A DNA stretch of 64,000 nt from Methanobacteriota archaeon. GTDB taxonomy: Archaea; Thermoplasmatota; Poseidoniia; Poseidoniales; Thalassarchaeaceae. A program made the position numbers and the translations under genes. The stretch's first letter is position 1. Each line of letters starts with the position of its first letter. Below the pieces are notes generated by a model that did no database searches, was not told the DNA's origin, and saw only the letters and a list, made by a program, of their open reading frames with translations. The stretch covers positions 1 through 64,000 of the forward strand of contig PSPW01000006.1 of the NCBI GenBank assembly GCA_004195615.1. Direction: 5' to 3'. Shown here in pieces: positions 3,502 through 64,000 of this stretch.

Positions 3502-4011
3502 ATGAAGATGGTTATGATAGTCGCAATGGACGAAGATTGCAACATAGGGAGCTCAGGAGAGCTTCCCTGGCGTCTGAAGAGCGACATGATTCGATTCAAG
3601 AGTCTGACTGAAGGTGATGGATTCAACTCTGTAATCATGGGTAGGAAGACCTGGGATTCTCTACCTGCTGATTTCACCCCCCTCCCTGACAGAACCAACA
3701 TCGTGATGTCTAGGGATACAAATTGGTATGCCGACGGAGCAGTGACCGCCCTATATGTGGGACGAGCAATCGAAATCGCGCTTGCTGATGGTTGTGATGA
3801 ATGCTGGGTTATTGGAGGATCGCAAATTTACGAGATGTTCCTAGAAAGGGTCGAGGAGATCCACGTGACGAAAGTGCATGTTGGTGGTAGTGGAAACGTG
3901 TCATTTCCTGTCTGGAACAAAATAAATTGGTCCGAGGAAGTTATCGAGCATGTTCCCGAGGATGCCCATAATGAGCATGCAACTACATACTCAGTATGGA
4001 CCAAGAATTAA
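3502..4011 (+). CDS. folA: Dihydrofolate reductase
   Basis: Reduces dihydrofolate to tetrahydrofolate with NADPH, regenerating the cofactor that ThyA consumes. 169 residues. Visible landmarks are the N-terminal strand MKMVMIVAMDED, the substrate loop IGSSGELPW, the VIMGRKTWDSLP nucleotide-binding segment, LPDRTNIVMSRD, and the WVIGGSQIYEMFL motif. The ATG at 3502 is 7 bp after the thyA stop and gives a normal family N-terminus, so longer upstream starts inside thyA are rejected. The tight thyA-folA pair mirrors bacterial operons and fits acquisition as a unit. Confidence 0.94.
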   Translation: MKMVMIVAMDEDCNIGSSGELPWRLKSDMIRFKSLTEGDGFNSVIMGRKTWDSLPADFTPLPDRTNIVMSRDTNWYADGAVTALYVGRAIEIALADGCDECWVIGGSQIYEMFLERVEEIHVTKVHVGGSGNVSFPVWNKINWSEEVIEHVPEDAHNEHATTYSVWTKN

Positions 4012-4075
4012 TTTCGTCATTAGCGTCCATGGGGCTTGCATTAATGGTTTTCAGAAGGGATGAATACTTCTGAGT

Positions 4076-6268
4076 TCACTTAACTCTAGACCCGCTGGAA
4101 ATCTCGCCTTCCGTAGTGAGAACTCTGACGTTTCCATCCTCATCGTCAGCGGCAAGAAGCATCCCCTCCGACAAGACACCTCTAAGCTTCCTGGGCTCTA
4201 GATTTGCTACGAAAATGACATCGAGACCTTCTAATTCGGAGGGTTCGTAGAAATCCTTCAAACCGGCGCAAACTGTCCTTGTCGAATCGGGGGCATCCTG
4301 CAATGTGATTACGTAGAGTTTGTCGGCATTAGGGTGATCTTCTACAGAAATAATGCGCCCAGTCCTCATCTCCACTTTCATGAAATCATCGAATTCGATG
4401 TAACCGCCCCCGGCATCGGGGTTGGGTGCATCGTCATTGTCCTTACTGTCCGATAATGACTCCTCGCTCTGAAGAATCTCCTCTAAATCGAGTCGTGAGA
4501 AGAGTGGGGCAGGAGTTTCGGGGTTCCATGATAGTGGAACTATAGCATCCATCGACTCTTCCAAGAGGATCGAATCCATTTCTGACTTGTTTCCAAGCAT
4601 GGACCACAGCCTATCGGAAGAGAATGGGGTGAATGGACGCATGCATACAGCCAAGCAGCTGCAGATCCTCCATGAGAGTGCCAATGAAGACAGCGATTGC
4701 CTCCTTTCAGCGGAATCTTCCTCGTTAAGATACTTCCAAGGGGCGGCCTCCTGAATTATGGAATTCCCCATCTGAGCTATTCCCATTATGCTCCTCAGGG
4801 CCTCTTTGAATCGTTGCCTCTCCATTGAATCAATAGCGCTGGATATCTTTTCCCCAACCAAATCAATTGTATTCTTGTGTAACTCTGGATTGTCGAAACT
4901 TGCTAGTGGGTTTTCCCCATCACTTGGGAGTCGGTGTGTCAAAGTCATCACCCTGTGGACGAAATTCCCATAGGTTCCAATCAGTTCGTTGTTAACTCTG
5001 TCCACATACTCATCCCAACGGAAATCTGTGTCATGAGTCTCGGGCATATTGATGGAAAGGTAATATCGGAGTGCATCCGGATCGTACCTCTCCAAGTATG
5101 AAGGAAGCCAAACCCCGTGCCTCCGGCTCTTGCTGAATTGCCCTCCCTTCAGCATAAGATACTCGTTTGAAGAAACATTGTCCTCAAGCAACAAGTCACC
5201 AGCCGTGGGAGAGTGCGAAATTTCACTGGAATCACTAGCATTCAGACCCATAATAATGGCGGGCCAAATTATCGTGTGGAAAGGGATGTTGTCCTTACCC
5301 ATGAAGTAGATGTGTCTTGGGCTATCGCCATCCTCGGGTACCTTCCACCAATTCTCCCAAGCATCAATTCCATCTGAATGCCCAGATGGTGCGGCATACC
5401 TCTCGGCCCAAATGCGAGCGCATGTATAGTATCCCTGTACAGCTTCGAACCACACATATATCCTCTTAGATGCCCAATCATCACCATCTAGGGGAATCTC
5501 GATGCCCCACTCAATATCTCTGGTCACTGCTCTGGCTCGAAGTCCCATGTCAAGCCAGTTCTTAGACATGGAGCGGACATTTGGTTTCCAAACGTCCTGC
5601 CTCTCGCTGCAGTGGGCCTCCAAGGATTTCTGGAAGTCATTTAGACGGAGGAAAAAGTGCTCTGTGTCCCTAACTTCTATTTCCGAATCCTCGTCTAGTT
5701 TGGAACGTGGTTCTACTAGTTCGTGAGCCTCGTAGGTTGCCCCACAAGAGTCGCATTGATCGCCTCTGGCGTTATCTTCTGAGCAGGAGGGGCACTTCCC
5801 CTCGACGTACCTATCCGGAAGGAACCTGACATGTCCTTCCTTGTTTACCGAGCAGTACTGCTGCATCGACTTGCGCTCAAGGAAACCAGAATCCAACAAA
5901 TGAGTGAATACTTCTTGCACCATTTCCTTGTGCAGAGGGTCCGAAGTACGATTATACAGGGCGCCTCCAAACTCAATTCCCCTTGGATCGACGGGATTAA
6001 CCCATGAGCACCCTAGGTCGGCTAATGCCTTCGTATTGATCTCGTGGTACTTGTCGACCACATCCTGTGGGCTAATGCACATCTCCTCTGCAGTCAGTGT
6101 GATTGGAGTACCGTGTTCATCAGAACCGCTACACATCAGCACTCGTCTACCACGAGCACGCTCGTATCTGTACTGGACATCTGCGGGAAGGCAATTGCCC
6201 GCCACATGACCCAGATGAAGAGGTCCGTTGGCATATGGCCATGCCATGAAAATAGTGACGTATGCCAT
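4076..6268 (-). CDS. metG: Methionyl-tRNA synthetase
   Basis: Charges tRNA-Met with methionine. 730 residues from the ATG at 6268; a TTG eight codons upstream is possible but less likely. Class I signatures are visible: HLGH (residues 18-21, the HIGH motif), a zinc knuckle CPSC...CDSC near residues 159-175, and FSKSR (about 378-382), the archaeal form of KMSKS. The last ~110 residues form an EMAP/Csa3-type tRNA-binding OB domain (FMKVEMRTGRI...HPNADKLY), fused here rather than encoded as a separate protein. Convergent with folA and divergent from the CNNM-type gene. Confidence 0.96.
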   Translation of the reverse strand: MAYVTIFMAWPYANGPLHLGHVAGNCLPADVQYRYERARGRRVLMCSGSDEHGTPITLTAEEMCISPQDVVDKYHEINTKALADLGCSWVNPVDPRGIEFGGALYNRTSDPLHKEMVQEVFTHLLDSGFLERKSMQQYCSVNKEGHVRFLPDRYVEGKCPSCSEDNARGDQCDSCGATYEAHELVEPRSKLDEDSEIEVRDTEHFFLRLNDFQKSLEAHCSERQDVWKPNVRSMSKNWLDMGLRARAVTRDIEWGIEIPLDGDDWASKRIYVWFEAVQGYYTCARIWAERYAAPSGHSDGIDAWENWWKVPEDGDSPRHIYFMGKDNIPFHTIIWPAIIMGLNASDSSEISHSPTAGDLLLEDNVSSNEYLMLKGGQFSKSRRHGVWLPSYLERYDPDALRYYLSINMPETHDTDFRWDEYVDRVNNELIGTYGNFVHRVMTLTHRLPSDGENPLASFDNPELHKNTIDLVGEKISSAIDSMERQRFKEALRSIMGIAQMGNSIIQEAAPWKYLNEEDSAERRQSLSSLALSWRICSCLAVCMRPFTPFSSDRLWSMLGNKSEMDSILLEESMDAIVPLSWNPETPAPLFSRLDLEEILQSEESLSDSKDNDDAPNPDAGGGYIEFDDFMKVEMRTGRIISVEDHPNADKLYVITLQDAPDSTRTVCAGLKDFYEPSELEGLDVIFVANLEPRKLRGVLSEGMLLAADDEDGNVRVLTTEGEISSGSRVK

Positions 6269-8297: not shown

Positions 8298-9308
8298 TCA
8301 ACCACCATACCTGCTTGCGATTAGCTTGTACAAATCAAATTCCTGCGATTCAGTGAATGACTTCATCACTGCATCCGGCAGGTCCACAAGCAGTTCATTA
8401 ACCATCGTGAAGAAATCTCCCCTTGAATCCGTATCGATCGAATTTGGATCACTGCCGACCGACTCGAATAATTTGAATCCGTCAGATTCGATGAAAGCAA
8501 CCGTCTTGTCATCTGGCAATTGTCCGAGTAGGCCGTTCACCACCGTGAAGAAGTGAGCGAAGTCCTCGTCGTAGCTTCTGAAGCTCTGGATGATACCATT
8601 CACGAACTCGTCAAAGTCAAGAGAGCCGGAGTTGTCGATGTCGGCGCTCTCGAAGAATGAATGTATTGAGTCCAAATCTAACTCGTCAATCTTGTCAACT
8701 GATACGCCCGTCTTCTCCGCTACTCGGCCTACGAAGTCAGAATCATCCATTGCCTCGATGAATTCAGATAGTGACATTTCGTTTTTACTGGCATCGGAGA
8801 TTAACTCGACTGTCGGTTTAATTAAGGATAAATCATCCTGATCCTTCTTCCTCAGGACGATAATCTCCCTATCCAGATCGGATCCGAAACGTTCGGCATA
8901 CCTGTCCATCAGAGAATCACCTCGGCCAGTTGAGATTCGGTTTATCCTGTTGTATATGCTATCTCTTGAGTCGCTTGATATTGAAGGGTTTGAGGACTTT
9001 CTCCTTTCCCAGACTGATTTGAAATCTGATGATTGCTTGATTTCCAAATGTGTTGAAGTAGGGCCAAGAGAATTTGCAGCGTCCAAGAGGTCCCCATCGG
9101 ATGCTGGTTCCGGAATAAAGCCAAACTGAGGTCTAGGGGGATCTGTTGGTAATGACGGGATTTTCGGCAATGGTAGTTCGGTATTGGGAGTTGGTATGGA
9201 GATACCTGGGGGAGGCGGAGGGGAGGGGGCAGGAGGCCCTTCGAAATCGGTATCTATATCGTCCAACGGGTCAACCACGGCTTGTTTCCGTAGTTCACCA
9301 CTATTCAA
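8298..9308 (-). CDS. EF-hand calcium-binding protein with proline-rich N-terminus
   Basis: 336 residues with no signal peptide, so probably cytoplasmic. Residues ~25-60 are proline-rich (a PPPPP run). A canonical EF-hand loop DIDNSGSLDFDE lies at 223-234, with acidic ligands at loop positions 1, 3, 9 and 12 and Gly at 6. After it comes a duplicated ~35-residue motif: FFTVVNGLLGQLPD (253-266) and FFTMVNELLVDLPD (299-312), each followed by F-x-E/T-S-x-x-F-L/D-L-F/Y. I do not recognise this repeat family. The gene is directly upstream of, and coupled to, the RDD-like membrane protein, which suggests a calcium-responsive partner. Start by ATG. Confidence 0.72.
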   Translation of the reverse strand: MNSGELRKQAVVDPLDDIDTDFEGPPAPSPPPPPGISIPTPNTELPLPKIPSLPTDPPRPQFGFIPEPASDGDLLDAANSLGPTSTHLEIKQSSDFKSVWERRKSSNPSISSDSRDSIYNRINRISTGRGDSLMDRYAERFGSDLDREIIVLRKKDQDDLSLIKPTVELISDASKNEMSLSEFIEAMDDSDFVGRVAEKTGVSVDKIDELDLDSIHSFFESADIDNSGSLDFDEFVNGIIQSFRSYDEDFAHFFTVVNGLLGQLPDDKTVAFIESDGFKLFESVGSDPNSIDTDSRGDFFTMVNELLVDLPDAVMKSFTESQEFDLYKLIASRYGG

Positions 9309-10802: not shown

Positions 10803-10889
10803 GTTGCCCCCTTGAATACAAACCATTTCATTATTGCGCGGAGACACAGAGACGAAAACCCATTTCAACTGAACCACCGCGGATTGAAC

Positions 10890-11750
10890 ATGAGCGATGG
10901 AGAACTGAAAATTAGAATCGGACATTCCCCCGACCCCGATGATGCTTTCATGTTCTATGCCCTGACCCAAGGTATTATCGAAACTCCCGGGAGATTCTAT
11001 GAACACTTGTTGGTGGACATCGATACCCTAAACCATGAGGCCCAGGAGAGTAACTTCGAAGTATCCGCAATAAGCATCCACTCTTATCCCAAGATTTCTA
11101 GAGATTATGCACTAATGAATTGCGGGGCATCAATGGGAGAGGGATATGGGCCCATATTGATCTCGAATAGGAAAATGAGCGTTGAAGAGGCTAAGGGCCA
11201 TGTTATTGCTGTACCCGGCAAAAGCACAAGTTCCTTCTTGGCTCTTGTACTTGCATTGGGGGACGTGGAAGTCAAGGAGGTAGCCTTCGATAGTATCCAA
11301 CCAGGCGTACTCAGCGGAGAGTTCGATGTAGGGGTGATTATTCACGAAGGACAATTGACATGGGCCAATGAAGGGGCGCACATGGTAATTGATCTTGGAA
11401 TCTGGTGGAATCAACTCACAGGGCTTCCACTTCCGCTTGGCGGAAACGTTGTCCGGAGAGACCTTGGCGAAGAAATGTGCAAGACAATATCTAATGACGT
11501 TAGGGAGAGCATTGAATACTCACTGAGGAACCCGGATTTGGCTCTGCAAGATGCAATTAAGTGGGGGCGGGGCATCGATGAGAACACAAATGAGGAGTTC
11601 GTCAGGATGTATGTGAATGACCGAACGATAGACTATGGCAAAGACGGCCGTGAGGCTGTTAGGTTATTCCTCGAGAGGGGGAAGGAAGTTGGCCTTGTCA
11701 GTGGAGATTTCGATACTAGAGGCATGGAGTTCATTGGAGCTGATGAGTAA
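10890..11750 (+). CDS. mqnD: 1,4-dihydroxy-6-naphthoate synthase (futalosine pathway, MqnD)
   Basis: Converts cyclic dehypoxanthine futalosine to 1,4-dihydroxy-6-naphthoate, the naphthoquinone precursor of menaquinone. 286 residues from the ATG at 10890. Family features are the start IRIGHSPDPDDAFMFYAL, NFEVSAISIHSYP, the GxGYGPI loop (GEGYGPILIS), IHEGQLTW containing the catalytic-type His, and LPLPLGGN. It is a periplasmic-binding-protein-like fold used as an enzyme, without a signal peptide. mqnA and mqnE lie 0.5 kb downstream on the opposite strand. Its TAA overlaps the next ATG by one base. Confidence 0.93.
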   Translation: MSDGELKIRIGHSPDPDDAFMFYALTQGIIETPGRFYEHLLVDIDTLNHEAQESNFEVSAISIHSYPKISRDYALMNCGASMGEGYGPILISNRKMSVEEAKGHVIAVPGKSTSSFLALVLALGDVEVKEVAFDSIQPGVLSGEFDVGVIIHEGQLTWANEGAHMVIDLGIWWNQLTGLPLPLGGNVVRRDLGEEMCKTISNDVRESIEYSLRNPDLALQDAIKWGRGIDENTNEEFVRMYVNDRTIDYGKDGREAVRLFLERGKEVGLVSGDFDTRGMEFIGADE

Positions 11751-12226
11751 TGGTCGAAAAACCCGATATCAGCGAGTTTGGTTCAGTCGATCCAGCACCT
11801 CCCAGCGAAGGTTTGTCAGTAGAGAATCATAGGTCGACGCTATGCGATGAGAACGAGAGGATGTTTCAGAGAATGAGGGCTCTTTTCGCTTTGAGGAATA
11901 TTGGCGGGAAAACAGCGGTTGACTCGTTGGCAGAGGCATTTAGCTCGACTTCTGCTTTACTGAAGCACGAAGTTGCCTACGTCCTAGGGCAGATGCAAGA
12001 TGATTTTGCTGTCCCTCATCTGATTAATCGATTGGAGGACTTGCAAGAGGATGTTATGGTCAGGCACGAAGCTGCTGAGGCACTGGGCGCAATAGGAAAT
12101 AGAATGGCGATGTCGACATTGGAAAAGTTTGCCGAAGATGGTGAAGTTGTAGTAGCAGAGTCATGCGAAGTGGCAATTGATCTATTGAATTGGGTTTCGA
12201 GTGATAGGCTAGATTACTCGGATTGA
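11750..12226 (+). CDS. Half-length deoxyhypusine hydroxylase-like HEAT-repeat protein
   Basis: 158 residues. From memory of the human enzyme, it aligns with the C-terminal half of eukaryotic deoxyhypusine hydroxylase (DOHH). It shares the linker SVDPAPP (residues 12-18), RALFALRNIGG, the iron-ligand dyad in LKHEVAYVLGQ (His73-Glu74), a second dyad in VRHEAAEALGAIG (His106-Glu107), and VAESCEVAIDLL. The 33-residue dyad spacing equals that within each human half. Full DOHH (~300 aa) has two such halves sharing a diiron centre; this protein has one, so a homodimer would be needed. Its ATG overlaps the mqnD stop, so it is cotranscribed. A non-hydroxylase HEAT scaffold cannot be excluded. Confidence 0.8.
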   Translation: MVEKPDISEFGSVDPAPPSEGLSVENHRSTLCDENERMFQRMRALFALRNIGGKTAVDSLAEAFSSTSALLKHEVAYVLGQMQDDFAVPHLINRLEDLQEDVMVRHEAAEALGAIGNRMAMSTLEKFAEDGEVVVAESCEVAIDLLNWVSSDRLDYSD

Positions 12227-13020
12227 GGATCTTCGAACCAGCCCGGTTCCGAATCAACCCCGCACACTTCCACGAGGAAGGTGCTCAGACCTTCTATAGA
12301 CGAGCGATCTAGAAGATTTGAGACTTCAGAATCGAAGTATTTTGCCACTCTCTCTATCGGCAGGTTGACCTTCTGAGATGCAGAAAATATTACTGATGAC
12401 CGTGTTTCTTCGTCTACTAGAAAGGTGTTGTAGTTCTTCAGCATTGATTTTCTAGCTTCATGGACAAATGATGGTTGTGAGTCGTTTCTGGCAGCGAAGA
12501 CTCCGAAGACCATCGGGAGTCCTGTGACATTTGTCCACTCCCCACCCAAATCCATTCTAACTAAATCGGGATAATTGAGCGCAGCTGAGATTGCCCTATC
12601 GCCGATAATTAGCGCCCCGTCACATTGCTCCAACATTGCCTCAATATCTGGACCCATGGGGATCAGTTTTGGGTCTAGTCCCCTCTGGCCCAGAATCCAT
12701 TTCATGAGCATGTTGGAGGTAGATGAATCGGATGGCAGAGCAATGTCACGCATCGACTCAAGACTCCTGTTGCCGAATAGCAATACTGAACCTACAGACT
12801 CCCTGCCCACAATACCAATATCCCGTATGAGGCTTAGTTGGTCTCTGTTTGTGGCATAGTCGGCAGTGGGAATTGGAGCAGTAATGCAATCCTTCCTCAA
12901 GAGATGCCCCGTTAGCCATGATGGGGGTGCGGTCAAAATCTTCCAATTTGCATCAAACGCGTGGAAAACGGGATCGCAATTGATGAAAGACACTCTGCCG
13001 AGGACCCTGTTCCAGGACAT
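12214..13020 (-). CDS. mqnA: Chorismate dehydratase (futalosine pathway, MqnA)
   Basis: Dehydrates chorismate to 3-enolpyruvyl-benzoate, the entry step of the futalosine route to menaquinone. 268 residues, ATG start. It begins GRVSFINCDPVFHAF, matching the family pattern G-x-V-x-(F/Y)-x-N-x-x-P. It contains LGGEWTNVTGLPMVFGVFAAR near residues 170-190, typical of MqnA (E/Q-W-x-x-x-T-G-L-P-F/M-V-F-x-x-W/F). It lies 4 bp downstream of mqnE, so the pair is one operon. Its stop overlaps the stop of the half-DOHH gene by 13 bp. Confidence 0.92.
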   Translation of the reverse strand: MSWNRVLGRVSFINCDPVFHAFDANWKILTAPPSWLTGHLLRKDCITAPIPTADYATNRDQLSLIRDIGIVGRESVGSVLLFGNRSLESMRDIALPSDSSTSNMLMKWILGQRGLDPKLIPMGPDIEAMLEQCDGALIIGDRAISAALNYPDLVRMDLGGEWTNVTGLPMVFGVFAARNDSQPSFVHEARKSMLKNYNTFLVDEETRSSVIFSASQKVNLPIERVAKYFDSEVSNLLDRSSIEGLSTFLVEVCGVDSEPGWFEDPQSE

Positions 13021-13024
13021 GTTT

Positions 13025-14224
13025 TCACTGCCCTATGATTGGAAGAATTTGCCAATCACTGATCGGCTCAGAAATTATCGGCTCGAATTTGGTATAAGTA
13101 GAGTCTCTCTTAACAGGCTCTTGGCCGGCAGAATTGATTAATCGCGCGAGTTTCGCACTGTCGTAATCGACACTGGCAGTACTGCCAGCGATGTGCATAA
13201 TCTCCTCATGGCCAACAGTCCCATCGATATCATCGGCTCCTGAATTGATGGCTATTGAGGCGAGGTGATCGCCAATATTCATTCTGTATGCCTTGATGTG
13301 GGGAATGTTGTCAAGCATTATCCTTGACAATGCGATTACTCGAATTACCTCTTCTCCGGATGCGAGTGAAGCTTCGGGAAGTCGAGTATTGTCTTCTAGG
13401 AATGGGTATGGGACGAAGCACTGGAAACCCCCGGAAGAGTCCTGTTGAGACCTGAGCTTGTCTAAGTGAGTCATTCGATCCTCTATCGATTCAATTGTTC
13501 CGAAAAGCATCGTGCAATTAGTTGGAATTCCGAGTTCGTGAGCAATCTCGTGAATCTCCAGATATTCGGATGACTTCTCCTTGCCCATGCAAATCCGATT
13601 TCTTATCGAATCGACCAATATCTCAGCACCACCACCGGGAAGGGAGTCGAGTCCCGATTCCTTCAGGATTTGGAGAGTTTGCCTAATTGATAATTTTGAT
13701 CGGGAGGCGATATGCTTCACCTCTACAGCTGTGAGTGATTTGATACTAATATCTGGAAAGTTCCTCTTAGTCAATTCATACATTTCAGAATAATTATCTA
13801 TAGTCCAGTCAGGATGGAGTCCGCCAACAGCATGAACCTCGTCAATTACGCCATGATATGGCTCGATCCGAGTGATGAAATCCTCGGCGTTTAGAGAGTA
13901 TGCTTCCGTATGCCTAGAGCCCTTTCTGAAAGCACAAAAGCGACAAGCAAGAGTACAGACGTTGGTGGTATTTACATGGAGATTTTCGTTAAAGAAGATG
14001 CGTTCCCCAAATCTTGAATGTTTTATCATTCTCGCTAGCGCAGTAAGACCGGGTAGTTTGGCATTCCTATGCAGATCAGCCCCAATTTCCATTGATATTC
14101 TTCCTCCATCAATTAATGTTCCTAGTGAGTCTAAGAGCAATGGATCGTTTCTAACTGATATTGGAATGGAAATTTTAGACAGTTCTACCCGCCAATTATT
14201 TTCTGATAAGGGTTGAATTGGCAT
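13025..14224 (-). CDS. mqnE: Aminofutalosine synthase, radical SAM (MqnE)
   Basis: Joins 3-enolpyruvyl-benzoate to an adenosyl radical to give 6-amino-6-deoxyfutalosine. 399 residues, ATG start. The radical-SAM cluster motif CTLACRFC has Cys at 90, 94 and 97. The LDSLPGGGAEIL segment, PTNCTMLFGTIES, GGFQCFVPYPF, and a C-terminal NIPHIKAY...GADDIDGTVGHEEI block are shared by MqnE and the related MqnC/CofH enzymes. LDSLPGGGAEI and HIKAY are more typical of MqnE, and the adjacent mqnA supports this. CofH or MqnC activity is the alternative. Confidence 0.88.
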   Translation of the reverse strand: MPIQPLSENNWRVELSKISIPISVRNDPLLLDSLGTLIDGGRISMEIGADLHRNAKLPGLTALARMIKHSRFGERIFFNENLHVNTTNVCTLACRFCAFRKGSRHTEAYSLNAEDFITRIEPYHGVIDEVHAVGGLHPDWTIDNYSEMYELTKRNFPDISIKSLTAVEVKHIASRSKLSIRQTLQILKESGLDSLPGGGAEILVDSIRNRICMGKEKSSEYLEIHEIAHELGIPTNCTMLFGTIESIEDRMTHLDKLRSQQDSSGGFQCFVPYPFLEDNTRLPEASLASGEEVIRVIALSRIMLDNIPHIKAYRMNIGDHLASIAINSGADDIDGTVGHEEIMHIAGSTASVDYDSAKLARLINSAGQEPVKRDSTYTKFEPIISEPISDWQILPIIGQ

Positions 14225-61410: not shown

Positions 61411-61797
61411 CTAGTGGTCCCGGCTGATCTTGTATCTTCCCATGGCTTCCATCCACTGAATTTCCCCTCCGGATTGAAGGTTCATACTCGCCTCGACGGG
61501 CAATATCAAGTTCTGGTAGGTCTTGCTGTCCATCGCATGGACCTCGTTGCCCTGTATGTGTGTGATGATGGCCGAGCCTTTCTCGATGAGGGGGATCTTG
61601 ATCGCGTCGGTCACCGTCCCCACGTGTGAGCGCTTCTGTCCGGTGAAGATGTCCTCTAGCTCTATCCTGGCCTTCGCCGAGCCATGCTTCCCCGGTTTAG
61701 ACTTGGACATGCTGAGAATCTTGTAGGCGTTTTCCTCGATGGAAACGTATCGTCCGACCTTCAACGTCCTTATCTCAGCCCGAGTCGTGCCTGGCAT
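61411..61797 (-). CDS. eif5a: Translation initiation/elongation factor aIF5A
   Basis: Promotes peptide-bond formation at difficult sequences such as polyproline. 128 residues from the ATG at 61797. KOW-like SH3 domain with the modification loop SKSKPGKHGSAKARI, where Lys37 is the residue converted to (deoxy)hypusine, followed by an OB domain. A half-length DOHH-like gene at 11750-12226 could act on it. Deoxyhypusine synthase is not in the window. Upstream lies an AT-rich box and a palindrome. Confidence 0.95.
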   Translation of the reverse strand: MPGTTRAEIRTLKVGRYVSIEENAYKILSMSKSKPGKHGSAKARIELEDIFTGQKRSHVGTVTDAIKIPLIEKGSAIITHIQGNEVHAMDSKTYQNLILPVEASMNLQSGGEIQWMEAMGRYKISRDH

Positions 61798-61898: not shown

Positions 61899-64000
61899 TC
61901 AGTCGTCCTTGCGTCGTCCGAGCATGGCAGCGCCAAGCAGAGACATGCCCGCGAGCACAGATGCGAAGCCGGGCGTGAAGCCGGGCGTCTTCTGTGCATC
62001 GTTCTCTATTGGAGTCATGCCTGCCTCGCCCCTGTTATCCTCATCGTCCAGGGCGTCGCAGATTCCGTCACCGTCGTAGTCCGAAGGCACGGAGCTCGGA
62101 TTCTTCGAGTCAGTGCCGCAGGAGTACTCGTCTGCATCCAGTATTCCGTCACCGTCGTCGTCGTCATCGGCGTTGTCGCCAATGCCGTCGTTGTCGGTGT
62201 CGTCCCACTCTGCTGCATCCGTCGGTGCCCAGTCGTCTGCGTTCAGCACGGCGTCACCGTCGATGTCTGAATCGCTGTTGTCTCCGACGTTGTCTCCGTC
62301 AGTATCCAACCACTCGTTCTCGTTCATCGGGAAAGCGTCGTCCGAGTTGAGGATTCCGTCCTCGTCCCTGTCAGCGTCGGCCACGTCGCCGATTCCGTCA
62401 CCATCGTAGTCCCTCTGCTCATTCGCATTGTTCGGGAAGGCGTCTAGGCCATCTGGGGTTCCATCGTTGTCATCGTCGGGATCGGCGTTGTCGCCCACTC
62501 CGTCCATGTCAGCGTCTGCGCTCTCGCTGGCGTCCAGCGGGAATGCGTCGGACCCATCGTCCACGCCGTCGCCGTCGTCGTCGGTGTCGGCGTTGTCGCC
62601 GATTCCATCGCCGTCGGTGTCGTACTGCTCGCAGCCATCAGGGTTAGCGATGCAGTCGGTGTCCAATGGTGACCAGTCGGCCACGTCAGGAACGCCGTCG
62701 TTGTCGTCATCGGAGTCCGATAAGTCGTCGATGCCGTCCTGGTCGTTGTCGGATGCTGCATCCGGATCGCTGTCGAAGTCGTCTTCGTCGTTGTCGATGC
62801 CATCTCCGTCGATGTCGGTGTCGGAGTTGTCTCCGATTCCGTCGCCATCAAGGTCACTGTCCTCGCTTGGGTCGTACGGGAACGCGTCGAGGCTATCTGG
62901 GACGCCGTCGTTGTCGTCGTCTCCATCAGCGTTGTCGCCCGTTCCGTCCATGTCGGTGTCAATCTGCTCGGATGGGTCGAATGGGAACTGGTCCCACTCG
63001 GTTGTGTCCTCGGACCATCCGGGGTTCTCGAAGTCGAAGCCGTCCTCGGAGTCTGTGATGATCTGCCAGTACTCTGAGAAGTTCAGGGAGGAGCTGTTGT
63101 CAGCATCCCATGCCGATATCCAGTCCCAGAACTCTGCGTTGAACGCGTCGATGTCATCCTGAGTTGGCCATACCTCTGGCTCTCCGGTGTCGTTTCCGTC
63201 ACCCTCGCCATCGCCATCACCGTCACCATCGCCATCTCCGTCGCCGTCTCCGTCGTCATCGCCGAACTCGTCTGCGAGGCAGTCGGGGATCCCGTCCAAG
63301 TCGTTGTCGATATCGAAGGCAGGTCCTGCCATTATCGCCCCATAAAAGCCCATCTGGGAGGTCCAGTTGGCTGGGTCGTCGGTACCTGATGACATGTCAA
63401 AGCCCATGATGAAGGCATCGGCAATGACCAAGCATGTGTCGTTGGAGATATCGAGGTCAAACTGTATGGTCTCGGTAACGCCGGTGCTGTTGAATGAGCC
63501 CTCATTCCAGGTATCTCCTTCCCAGTGCTCGTCCTCGCCATCGGGGCAGTCATCGTATCCGTCGTTGACCTGGTAGATCCAGATTTCGGAACCGTCCATG
63601 CAGTCGAACCAGTTGATTGGGTCTCCGGCGGCGTCGTACTGTTGCTCGTCCGCACCGTCGTCGCAGTCATCTTCTCCGTCGTTGACGTAGTCGAAAGGTA
63701 TCTCATCGCCGTTTCCGCAGACGAAGGTGGGACCACCATCCGGTCCGGGGATTTCTTCTACTCCCCATTCGTACGAGTACGATACGTTCTCGATCAGTCC
63801 GCCGAAGAACCATTCCATCGGCTGCACTGCCTCTGAATCGAAGTAGTACTCGATGTTCTCGAGGAGGAACGCCAGTTCTTCCTCTTCGGTGGAGTTGTCG
63901 TCAAGACCTGTTTCCCACATATCGAAGCCGTAGAGGGTATGCTCCACATCTCCGAACTCGTCCACTAAGGACAGTTCGATGTCGATGTGGGAAGAGTTGT
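61899..64000 (-). CDS. Asp-rich, calcium-binding surface protein with PGF-CTERM anchor (N-terminus outside window)
   Basis: At least 699 residues, open at the right edge; the GTG at 63965 is not a secure start because the frame continues upstream. Numbering from 63965, in order: a mixed region to ~80; two LDLa-like modules (81-107 and 120-146); a domain with one Cys pair (~165-230); a (Asp-Gly)n linker (~238-258); an EF-hand-like DADNSSSLNFSE (287-298); eight or so thrombospondin-3-type repeats (~336-640); and a C-terminal TPGFTPGFASVLAGMSLLGAAMLGRRKDD tail (residues 660-688: PGF motif, hydrophobic helix, basic end), i.e. a PGF-CTERM signal for archaeosortase. Very acidic; likely a Ca2+-stiffened cell-surface fibre or adhesin. 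Confidence 0.9.
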   Translation of the reverse strand, partial: NSSHIDIELSLVDEFGDVEHTLYGFDMWETGLDDNSTEEEELAFLLENIEYYFDSEAVQPMEWFFGGLIENVSYSYEWGVEEIPGPDGGPTFVCGNGDEIPFDYVNDGEDDCDDGADEQQYDAAGDPINWFDCMDGSEIWIYQVNDGYDDCPDGEDEHWEGDTWNEGSFNSTGVTETIQFDLDISNDTCLVIADAFIMGFDMSSGTDDPANWTSQMGFYGAIMAGPAFDIDNDLDGIPDCLADEFGDDDGDGDGDGDGDGDGDGEGDGNDTGEPEVWPTQDDIDAFNAEFWDWISAWDADNSSSLNFSEYWQIITDSEDGFDFENPGWSEDTTEWDQFPFDPSEQIDTDMDGTGDNADGDDDNDGVPDSLDAFPYDPSEDSDLDGDGIGDNSDTDIDGDGIDNDEDDFDSDPDAASDNDQDGIDDLSDSDDDNDGVPDVADWSPLDTDCIANPDGCEQYDTDGDGIGDNADTDDDGDGVDDGSDAFPLDASESADADMDGVGDNADPDDDNDGTPDGLDAFPNNANEQRDYDGDGIGDVADADRDEDGILNSDDAFPMNENEWLDTDGDNVGDNSDSDIDGDAVLNADDWAPTDAAEWDDTDNDGIGDNADDDDDGDGILDADEYSCGTDSKNPSSVPSDYDGDGICDALDDEDNRGEAGMTPIENDAQKTPGFTPGFASVLAGMSLLGAAMLGRRKDD
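61902..61982 (-). other. PGF-CTERM sorting signal
   Basis: Encodes the last residues of the surface protein: a PGF motif (twice, PGFTPGF), a ~16-residue hydrophobic helix SVLAGMSLLGAAML, then GRRKDD. This tripartite plan is what archaeosortase A recognises. Confidence 0.85.
62046..62960 (-). repeat. Thrombospondin-3-type Asp-rich repeat array
   Basis: About eight units of ~33-40 residues, built on DxDxDGxGDNADxDDDxDGxxD and separated by a DAFPxxxxE or DWxP spacer. Each Asp-rich stretch is a calcium-binding loop type. The DNA repeats are imperfect and encoded in phase. An interrupting Cys pair occurs near residues 438-445. Confidence 0.85.
63192..63254 (-). repeat. (Asp-Gly)n microsatellite linker
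   Basis: A hexanucleotide-type GAC/GAT-GGN run encoding roughly ten consecutive Asp-Gly pairs (residues ~238-258). Codons vary at third positions, so the run is old or under selection for protein sequence, not a fresh slippage product. Confidence 0.8.
63528..63608 (-). other. LDLa-like module 2
   Basis: Encodes residues 120-146 of the surface protein: FDCMDGSEIW then VNDGYDDCPDGEDE. It has the calcium-binding DG-x-x-DC-x-DG-x-DE ending of LDL-receptor class A modules, with two cysteines missing from the usual set. Confidence 0.6.
63645..63725 (-). other. LDLa-like module 1
   Basis: Encodes residues 81-107: FVCGNGDEIP then VNDGEDDCDDGADE. It follows the same pattern as module 2, including replacement of the Cys after Gly by Glu and of the Cys before DG by Asn. 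Confidence 0.6.

Follow-up and report, generated by a model that had tools for sequence, protein, structure and literature searches.

An archaeon of the Poseidoniales encodes a genuine single half of deoxyhypusine hydroxylase (DOHH, EC 1.14.99.29). The 158-residue protein, here called half-DOHH, comes from the window, that is, the whole 64,000-nucleotide stretch of DNA analysed, and is not merely a PBS-lyase HEAT protein. The best explanation, which we consider likely to be right, is a half-size and probably homodimeric archaeal DOHH, whose dimer, iron, substrate and reaction we infer. The observations behind it are homology to both halves of DOHH, the fold, invariance of the active site, conservation of the family, the presence of deoxyhypusine synthase (DHS) and aIF5A, the lack of a partner half and an association with O2 respiration.

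As evidenced by a phmmer search of all PDB sequences, the top match of half-DOHH is human DOHH (4D4Z, E 3.5e-71). Residues 28-150 align to the N-half of the deposited chain (16-138, 111 bits) and residues 5-146, with the SVDPAPP motif, to its C-half (144-285, 128 bits). Among the alignments listed, designed alphaRep HEAT proteins come next with at most 48 bits per stretch, and the best natural HEAT protein of solved structure, MTH187, reaches 34 bits and CpcE 22 bits, so that the homology is specific to DOHH. A profile of 52 archaeal members likewise leads to DOHH (1.4e-100). The reading frame starts with an ATG that shares its first base with the preceding gene's stop codon (TAATG). The sequence-only reading had described human C-half signatures, and these are present: SVDPAPP at residues 12-18, RALFALRN, LKHEVAYVLGQ and VRHEAAEALGAIG. 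The protein is not purely C-half in character, however, since at the columns where the two human halves differ it agrees with the N-half at 15 and with the C-half at 21. In the two closest pairs of half-DOHH genes dN/dS is 0.26 and 0.09 (synonymous sites are saturated in more distant pairs), showing that purifying selection acts on the gene. A chance match is excluded by the E-value to DOHH, by this selection and by the recurrence of stand-alone halves of this kind across many genomes. A pseudogene or a truncated full-length DOHH gene was rejected on account of the selection and of the single half found per locus.

Table 1. Half-DOHH, its neighbours and its presumed substrate in the window.
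Feature	Coordinates	Strand	Basis and remarks
Half-size DOHH homologue, 158 aa, four HEAT hairpins	11750..12226	+	phmmer, profile search, AlphaFold, Foldseek, alignment
PF02621 (VitK2_biosynth, MqnD/MqnA-type) protein, directly upstream, 1-base overlap with half-DOHH start	10812..11750	+	Pfam, gene-order comparison
Second PF02621 protein (menaquinone biosynthesis), convergent neighbour	12214..13020	-	Position not conserved in Poseidoniaceae
CofH/MqnE-type radical SAM protein, futalosine menaquinone pathway, neighbour	13025..14224	-	Pfam, NCBIfam
aIF5A, presumed substrate, 128 aa from ATG at 61797	61411..61797	-	TIGR00037; ORF open from 61830

The AlphaFold model (mean pLDDT 90) is composed of eight helices forming four hairpins, the HEAT hairpin fold of a DOHH half. 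Foldseek ranks 4D4Z first (E 3.8e-11, TM 0.86 on the query, 49% identity), with the next protein at 0.68. In the model the two His-Glu dyads, H73-E74 (helix 69-81) and H106-E107 (helix 102-115), lie close to where the second helix of hairpins 2 and 3 begins. Their spacing of 33 residues, correctly read from the sequence beforehand, is identical in human DOHH (56/89 and 207/240), and Gly80 corresponds to human Gly63/Gly214. All 52 archaeal sequences compared carry H73, E74, G80, H106 and E107 without exception. In DOHH the iron pair is anchored by H56, H89, E90, H207, H240 and E241, and the deoxyhypusine side chain is bound by E57, E90, E208 and E241 together with two glycines (PMC9117371). Among the substrate-binding residues of human DOHH that review lists G65, apparently a misprint, given that position 65 is a methionine and the conserved glycine, symmetric with G214, is at 63. 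Half-DOHH thus carries the dyads and the substrate glycine of DOHH, with two dyads per chain. As each chain holds one of the two symmetric residue sets, a homodimer would hold the full set.

To describe the distribution we surveyed 293 Thermoplasmatota genomes, comprising 82 Poseidoniales (Marine Group II) and 211 others. Half-DOHH is found in 65 of the 82 Poseidoniales genomes, in both families, and at 41-58% identity in 9 of the 211 others; weaker matches were ordinary HEAT proteins or fragments. A pattern scan of 84,980 GTDB species with two search motifs, which counts halves keeping both motifs, gave 277 matches, 238 of them relatives. The best 80 of these 238 were taken to come from Thermoplasmatota, nearly all of them from Poseidoniales, and include the complete Marine Group II chromosome CM001443.1. 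Each of the 80 loci encodes just one half, which from the SVDP motif onwards measures about 148 residues; in one of them the second dyad motif takes a variant form. Contamination or a lone oddity was rejected, given the conservation across two families, the conserved gene order and the complete chromosome. No viral copy was confirmed in IMG/VR. Overall, half-DOHH is a conserved archaeal family that always consists of one half, as the claim of a stand-alone DOHH half in an archaeon had held. The four dyads and eight repeats that the fused halves of DOHH hold in a single chain are not found in half-DOHH, and since only one half occurs at every locus we class it as a DOHH variant rather than a standard member.

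Outside Poseidoniales, all nine carriers encode a haem-copper oxidase (COX1), compared with 55 of the 211 genomes in the background (P 3e-6, a value that ignores kinship among the nine carriers and is weakened by it). This is what an O2-dependent enzyme predicts. Counting against the DOHH reading, many oxidase-bearing relatives are without half-DOHH, for example the aerobic families f27, f6 and f3, which have COX1.

How could half an enzyme complete its active site? The archaeon's own genome contains a single DOHH-like match and no second half, which makes a hetero-partner unlikely; a separate N-half partner was therefore rejected. A homodimer is then the simplest way to rebuild the four dyads, and half-DOHH probably acts as a pair of identical halves. 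The two subunits would face each other in the manner of the two human DOHH halves, and each would supply the putative iron ligands H73, H106 and E107 and the substrate contacts E74, E107 and G80. Such a dimer would hold one O2-activating peroxo-diiron centre. DHS would place deoxyhypusine on Lys37 of aIF5A, and the half-DOHH dimer would then hydroxylate that side chain.

The substrate and the upstream enzyme are both encoded in the same organism. The sequence-only reading had placed aIF5A with a modifiable Lys37 in the window, and the protein is indeed aIF5A (TIGR00037, 113.5 bits against a cut-off of 75.45) with the target lysine K37 in KPGKHGSAK. Its gene lies 49 kb from that of half-DOHH, so sharing a window signifies no linkage; the gene that is linked belongs to the menaquinone pathway. 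At 61899-63965 (-) the window also encodes a surface-protein-like protein of 688 residues with many acidic thrombospondin type 3-like calcium repeats and a weak LDL-receptor class A match. The genome also encodes a true DHS (NCBIfam, 370.5 against the equivalog cut-off of 350), and DHS was found in 285 of the 293 Thermoplasmatota genomes.

An arginase/agmatinase-family gene is present in the archaeon's own genome and a PF01564 spermidine synthase was not found there, so the route to deoxyhypusine would need another donor, as proposed for Haloferax (PMC5178350). Haloferax makes deoxyhypusine via a route thought to use agmatine (PMC5178350), and by analogy the deoxyhypusine substrate can be expected in this archaeon. 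For Thermoplasma the occurrence of hypusine is disputed, with one paper reporting it (PMC9599864) and another little or none in Thermoplasmales (PMC5178350). We further observed a second DHS-family protein in the same genome (C8:2806-3750, -), whose best NCBIfam match is homospermidine biosynthesis, below the cut-off. It directly adjoins an AdoMet-decarboxylase-family gene (3751-4134, -; locus L055), and in a genome without PF01564 the pair is possibly an alternative polyamine route.

Against a DOHH function stands the loss of half-DOHH from some Poseidoniales genomes in which the locus is otherwise retained, which indicates that the protein is dispensable. Yeast DOHH is likewise dispensable (PMC8153317).

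The origin of half-DOHH allows two readings. The N- and C-halves of human DOHH are 38% identical to each other, and half-DOHH is 44% and 47% identical to them and keeps 43 of the 51 residues that both human halves have in common. Judged by sequence, a relative that never underwent the duplication would be expected to show such a residue pattern. We tentatively propose that Poseidoniales and some other aerobic Thermoplasmatota may make true hypusine by means of half-DOHH homodimers in which the condition preceding duplication and fusion survives, as the sequence-only reading had also considered. Alternatively, an ancestor within Thermoplasmatota could have captured a eukaryotic DOHH and kept only the C-half with the SVDPAPP linker, a scenario that we find possible but doubtful and that concerns the ancestry of half-DOHH and not its function, as the protein would still form a homodimer. 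Nearly all archaeal members begin with the motif that joins the halves in human DOHH, which favors capture. So does a tree of 36 rows, unrooted and including two yeast Lia1 rows, in which the N-halves split off (99/97) and the eukaryotic C-half is placed nearer to the archaeal set than the N-half. Nevertheless, an AU test does not reject a topology that unites the eukaryotic halves (p 0.22, or 0.27 without the two yeast rows), so that a single eukaryotic duplication outside the archaeal set is compatible with the tree but not required by it. Capture of a C-half also sits poorly with the N-specific residues of half-DOHH, with its greater identity to each human half than the halves have to each other, and with a family that is deep and diverse in Thermoplasmatota.

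A different function is suggested by the gene neighborhood. Half-DOHH could be a DOHH-type diiron oxygenase with a different substrate, quinone metabolism being the likeliest area. In 113 Poseidoniales loci a same-strand PF02621 gene immediately precedes it, at a distance of no more than 30 bp in 105 of them, and the two stay paired even where the primase and the other PF02621 gene have relocated. This PF02621 gene is the sole conserved neighbor, and we do not expect the CofH/MqnE-type neighbor to contribute to the function of half-DOHH. A proline-rich protein of 336 residues with a weak EF-hand match (DIDNSGSLDFDEF) is encoded at 8298-9308 (-) of the window. The pairing breaks down in both directions, however. 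Two genomes of family f31 (G158, 92% complete, and G237) encode half-DOHH at 55-58% identity and have no PF02621 gene, and seven Poseidoniales genomes keep both PF02621 genes while an intact half-DOHH is absent. In two of these seven (G184 and G009) decayed half-DOHH remnants lie just behind PF02621. In the nine lineages outside Poseidoniales, moreover, none of the window's half-DOHH neighbors is nearby, and the conserved residues of half-DOHH are those reported for deoxyhypusine binding. Half-DOHH hence does not occur with and only with the futalosine pathway to menaquinone, and as it and PF02621 each occur without the other, a quinone-specific role is unlikely; shared transcription is the better explanation of the pairing. 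The remnants themselves, at 5156-5296 of locus L140 and 2042-2146 of locus L146, directly behind the PF02621 gene, are a secondary loss of half-DOHH in progress.

Finally, a non-catalytic PBS-type HEAT scaffold of the CpcE or NblB kind is highly improbable: half-DOHH does share HEAT_PBS repeats with PBS-lyase HEAT-repeat proteins (CpcE, NblB, YibA, MTH187) and designed alphaRep proteins, receives no Pfam label more specific than HEAT_2/HEAT_PBS and has NblB as its best NCBIfam match, but its scores with the NblB model (39.8 bits, cut-off 300) and the CpcE model (27.9 bits, cut-off 330) are about one tenth of the curated family cut-offs, DOHH is far ahead in both sequence and fold, and the residues of the metal site, for which a scaffold has no need, do not vary. 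We know of no paired HE/HE metal site in PBS-lyase HEAT-repeat or alphaRep proteins. A plain HEAT/PBS protein was rejected on the family scores, the DOHH match and the Foldseek result; placement with CpcE-type HEAT proteins was the outcome that the sequence-only reading had named as fatal to its claim, and the searches gave the opposite.

Taken together, half-DOHH resembles eukaryotic DOHH (human 4D4Z/4D50; yeast Lia1) in its identity to each human half, its four-hairpin fold, dyad spacing, substrate glycine and SVDPAPP motif, and in having aIF5A and DHS as substrate and first enzyme. Unlike the fused eukaryotic pair of 302 residues, the archaeal protein is a single half whose predicted site needs an oligomer.

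Hypusine occurs in some archaea. That archaea were thought to have no DOHH, as presumed at the outset, is borne out by papers of 2012, 2016, 2018 and 2021 (PMC3306375, PMC5178350, PMC6105217, PMC8153317), and according to these reviews and primary papers the second hypusine step is without an assigned gene. We found no report of an archaeal DOHH in the open-licence literature on Asgard, Marine Group II, Poseidoniales or Thermoplasmatota, although a subscription paper or database note could exist. On aIF5A, half-DOHH would perform the same step as the hypusine-making hydroxylase of Sulfolobus, where no DOHH homologue was found (PMC6105217); in the genomes surveyed and the 80 best loci of the scan half-DOHH is seen only in Thermoplasmatota, so it does not account for hypusine in Sulfolobus. 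Half-DOHH offers a concrete candidate for the second hypusine step in the archaea most numerous in surface ocean waters. It would be a peroxo-diiron enzyme in minimal, symmetric form and would help to trace the origin of the two-fold eukaryotic DOHH. If the state before duplication is indeed preserved, an enzyme that modifies a eukaryotic translation factor would be traceable to an archaeal single-half ancestor.
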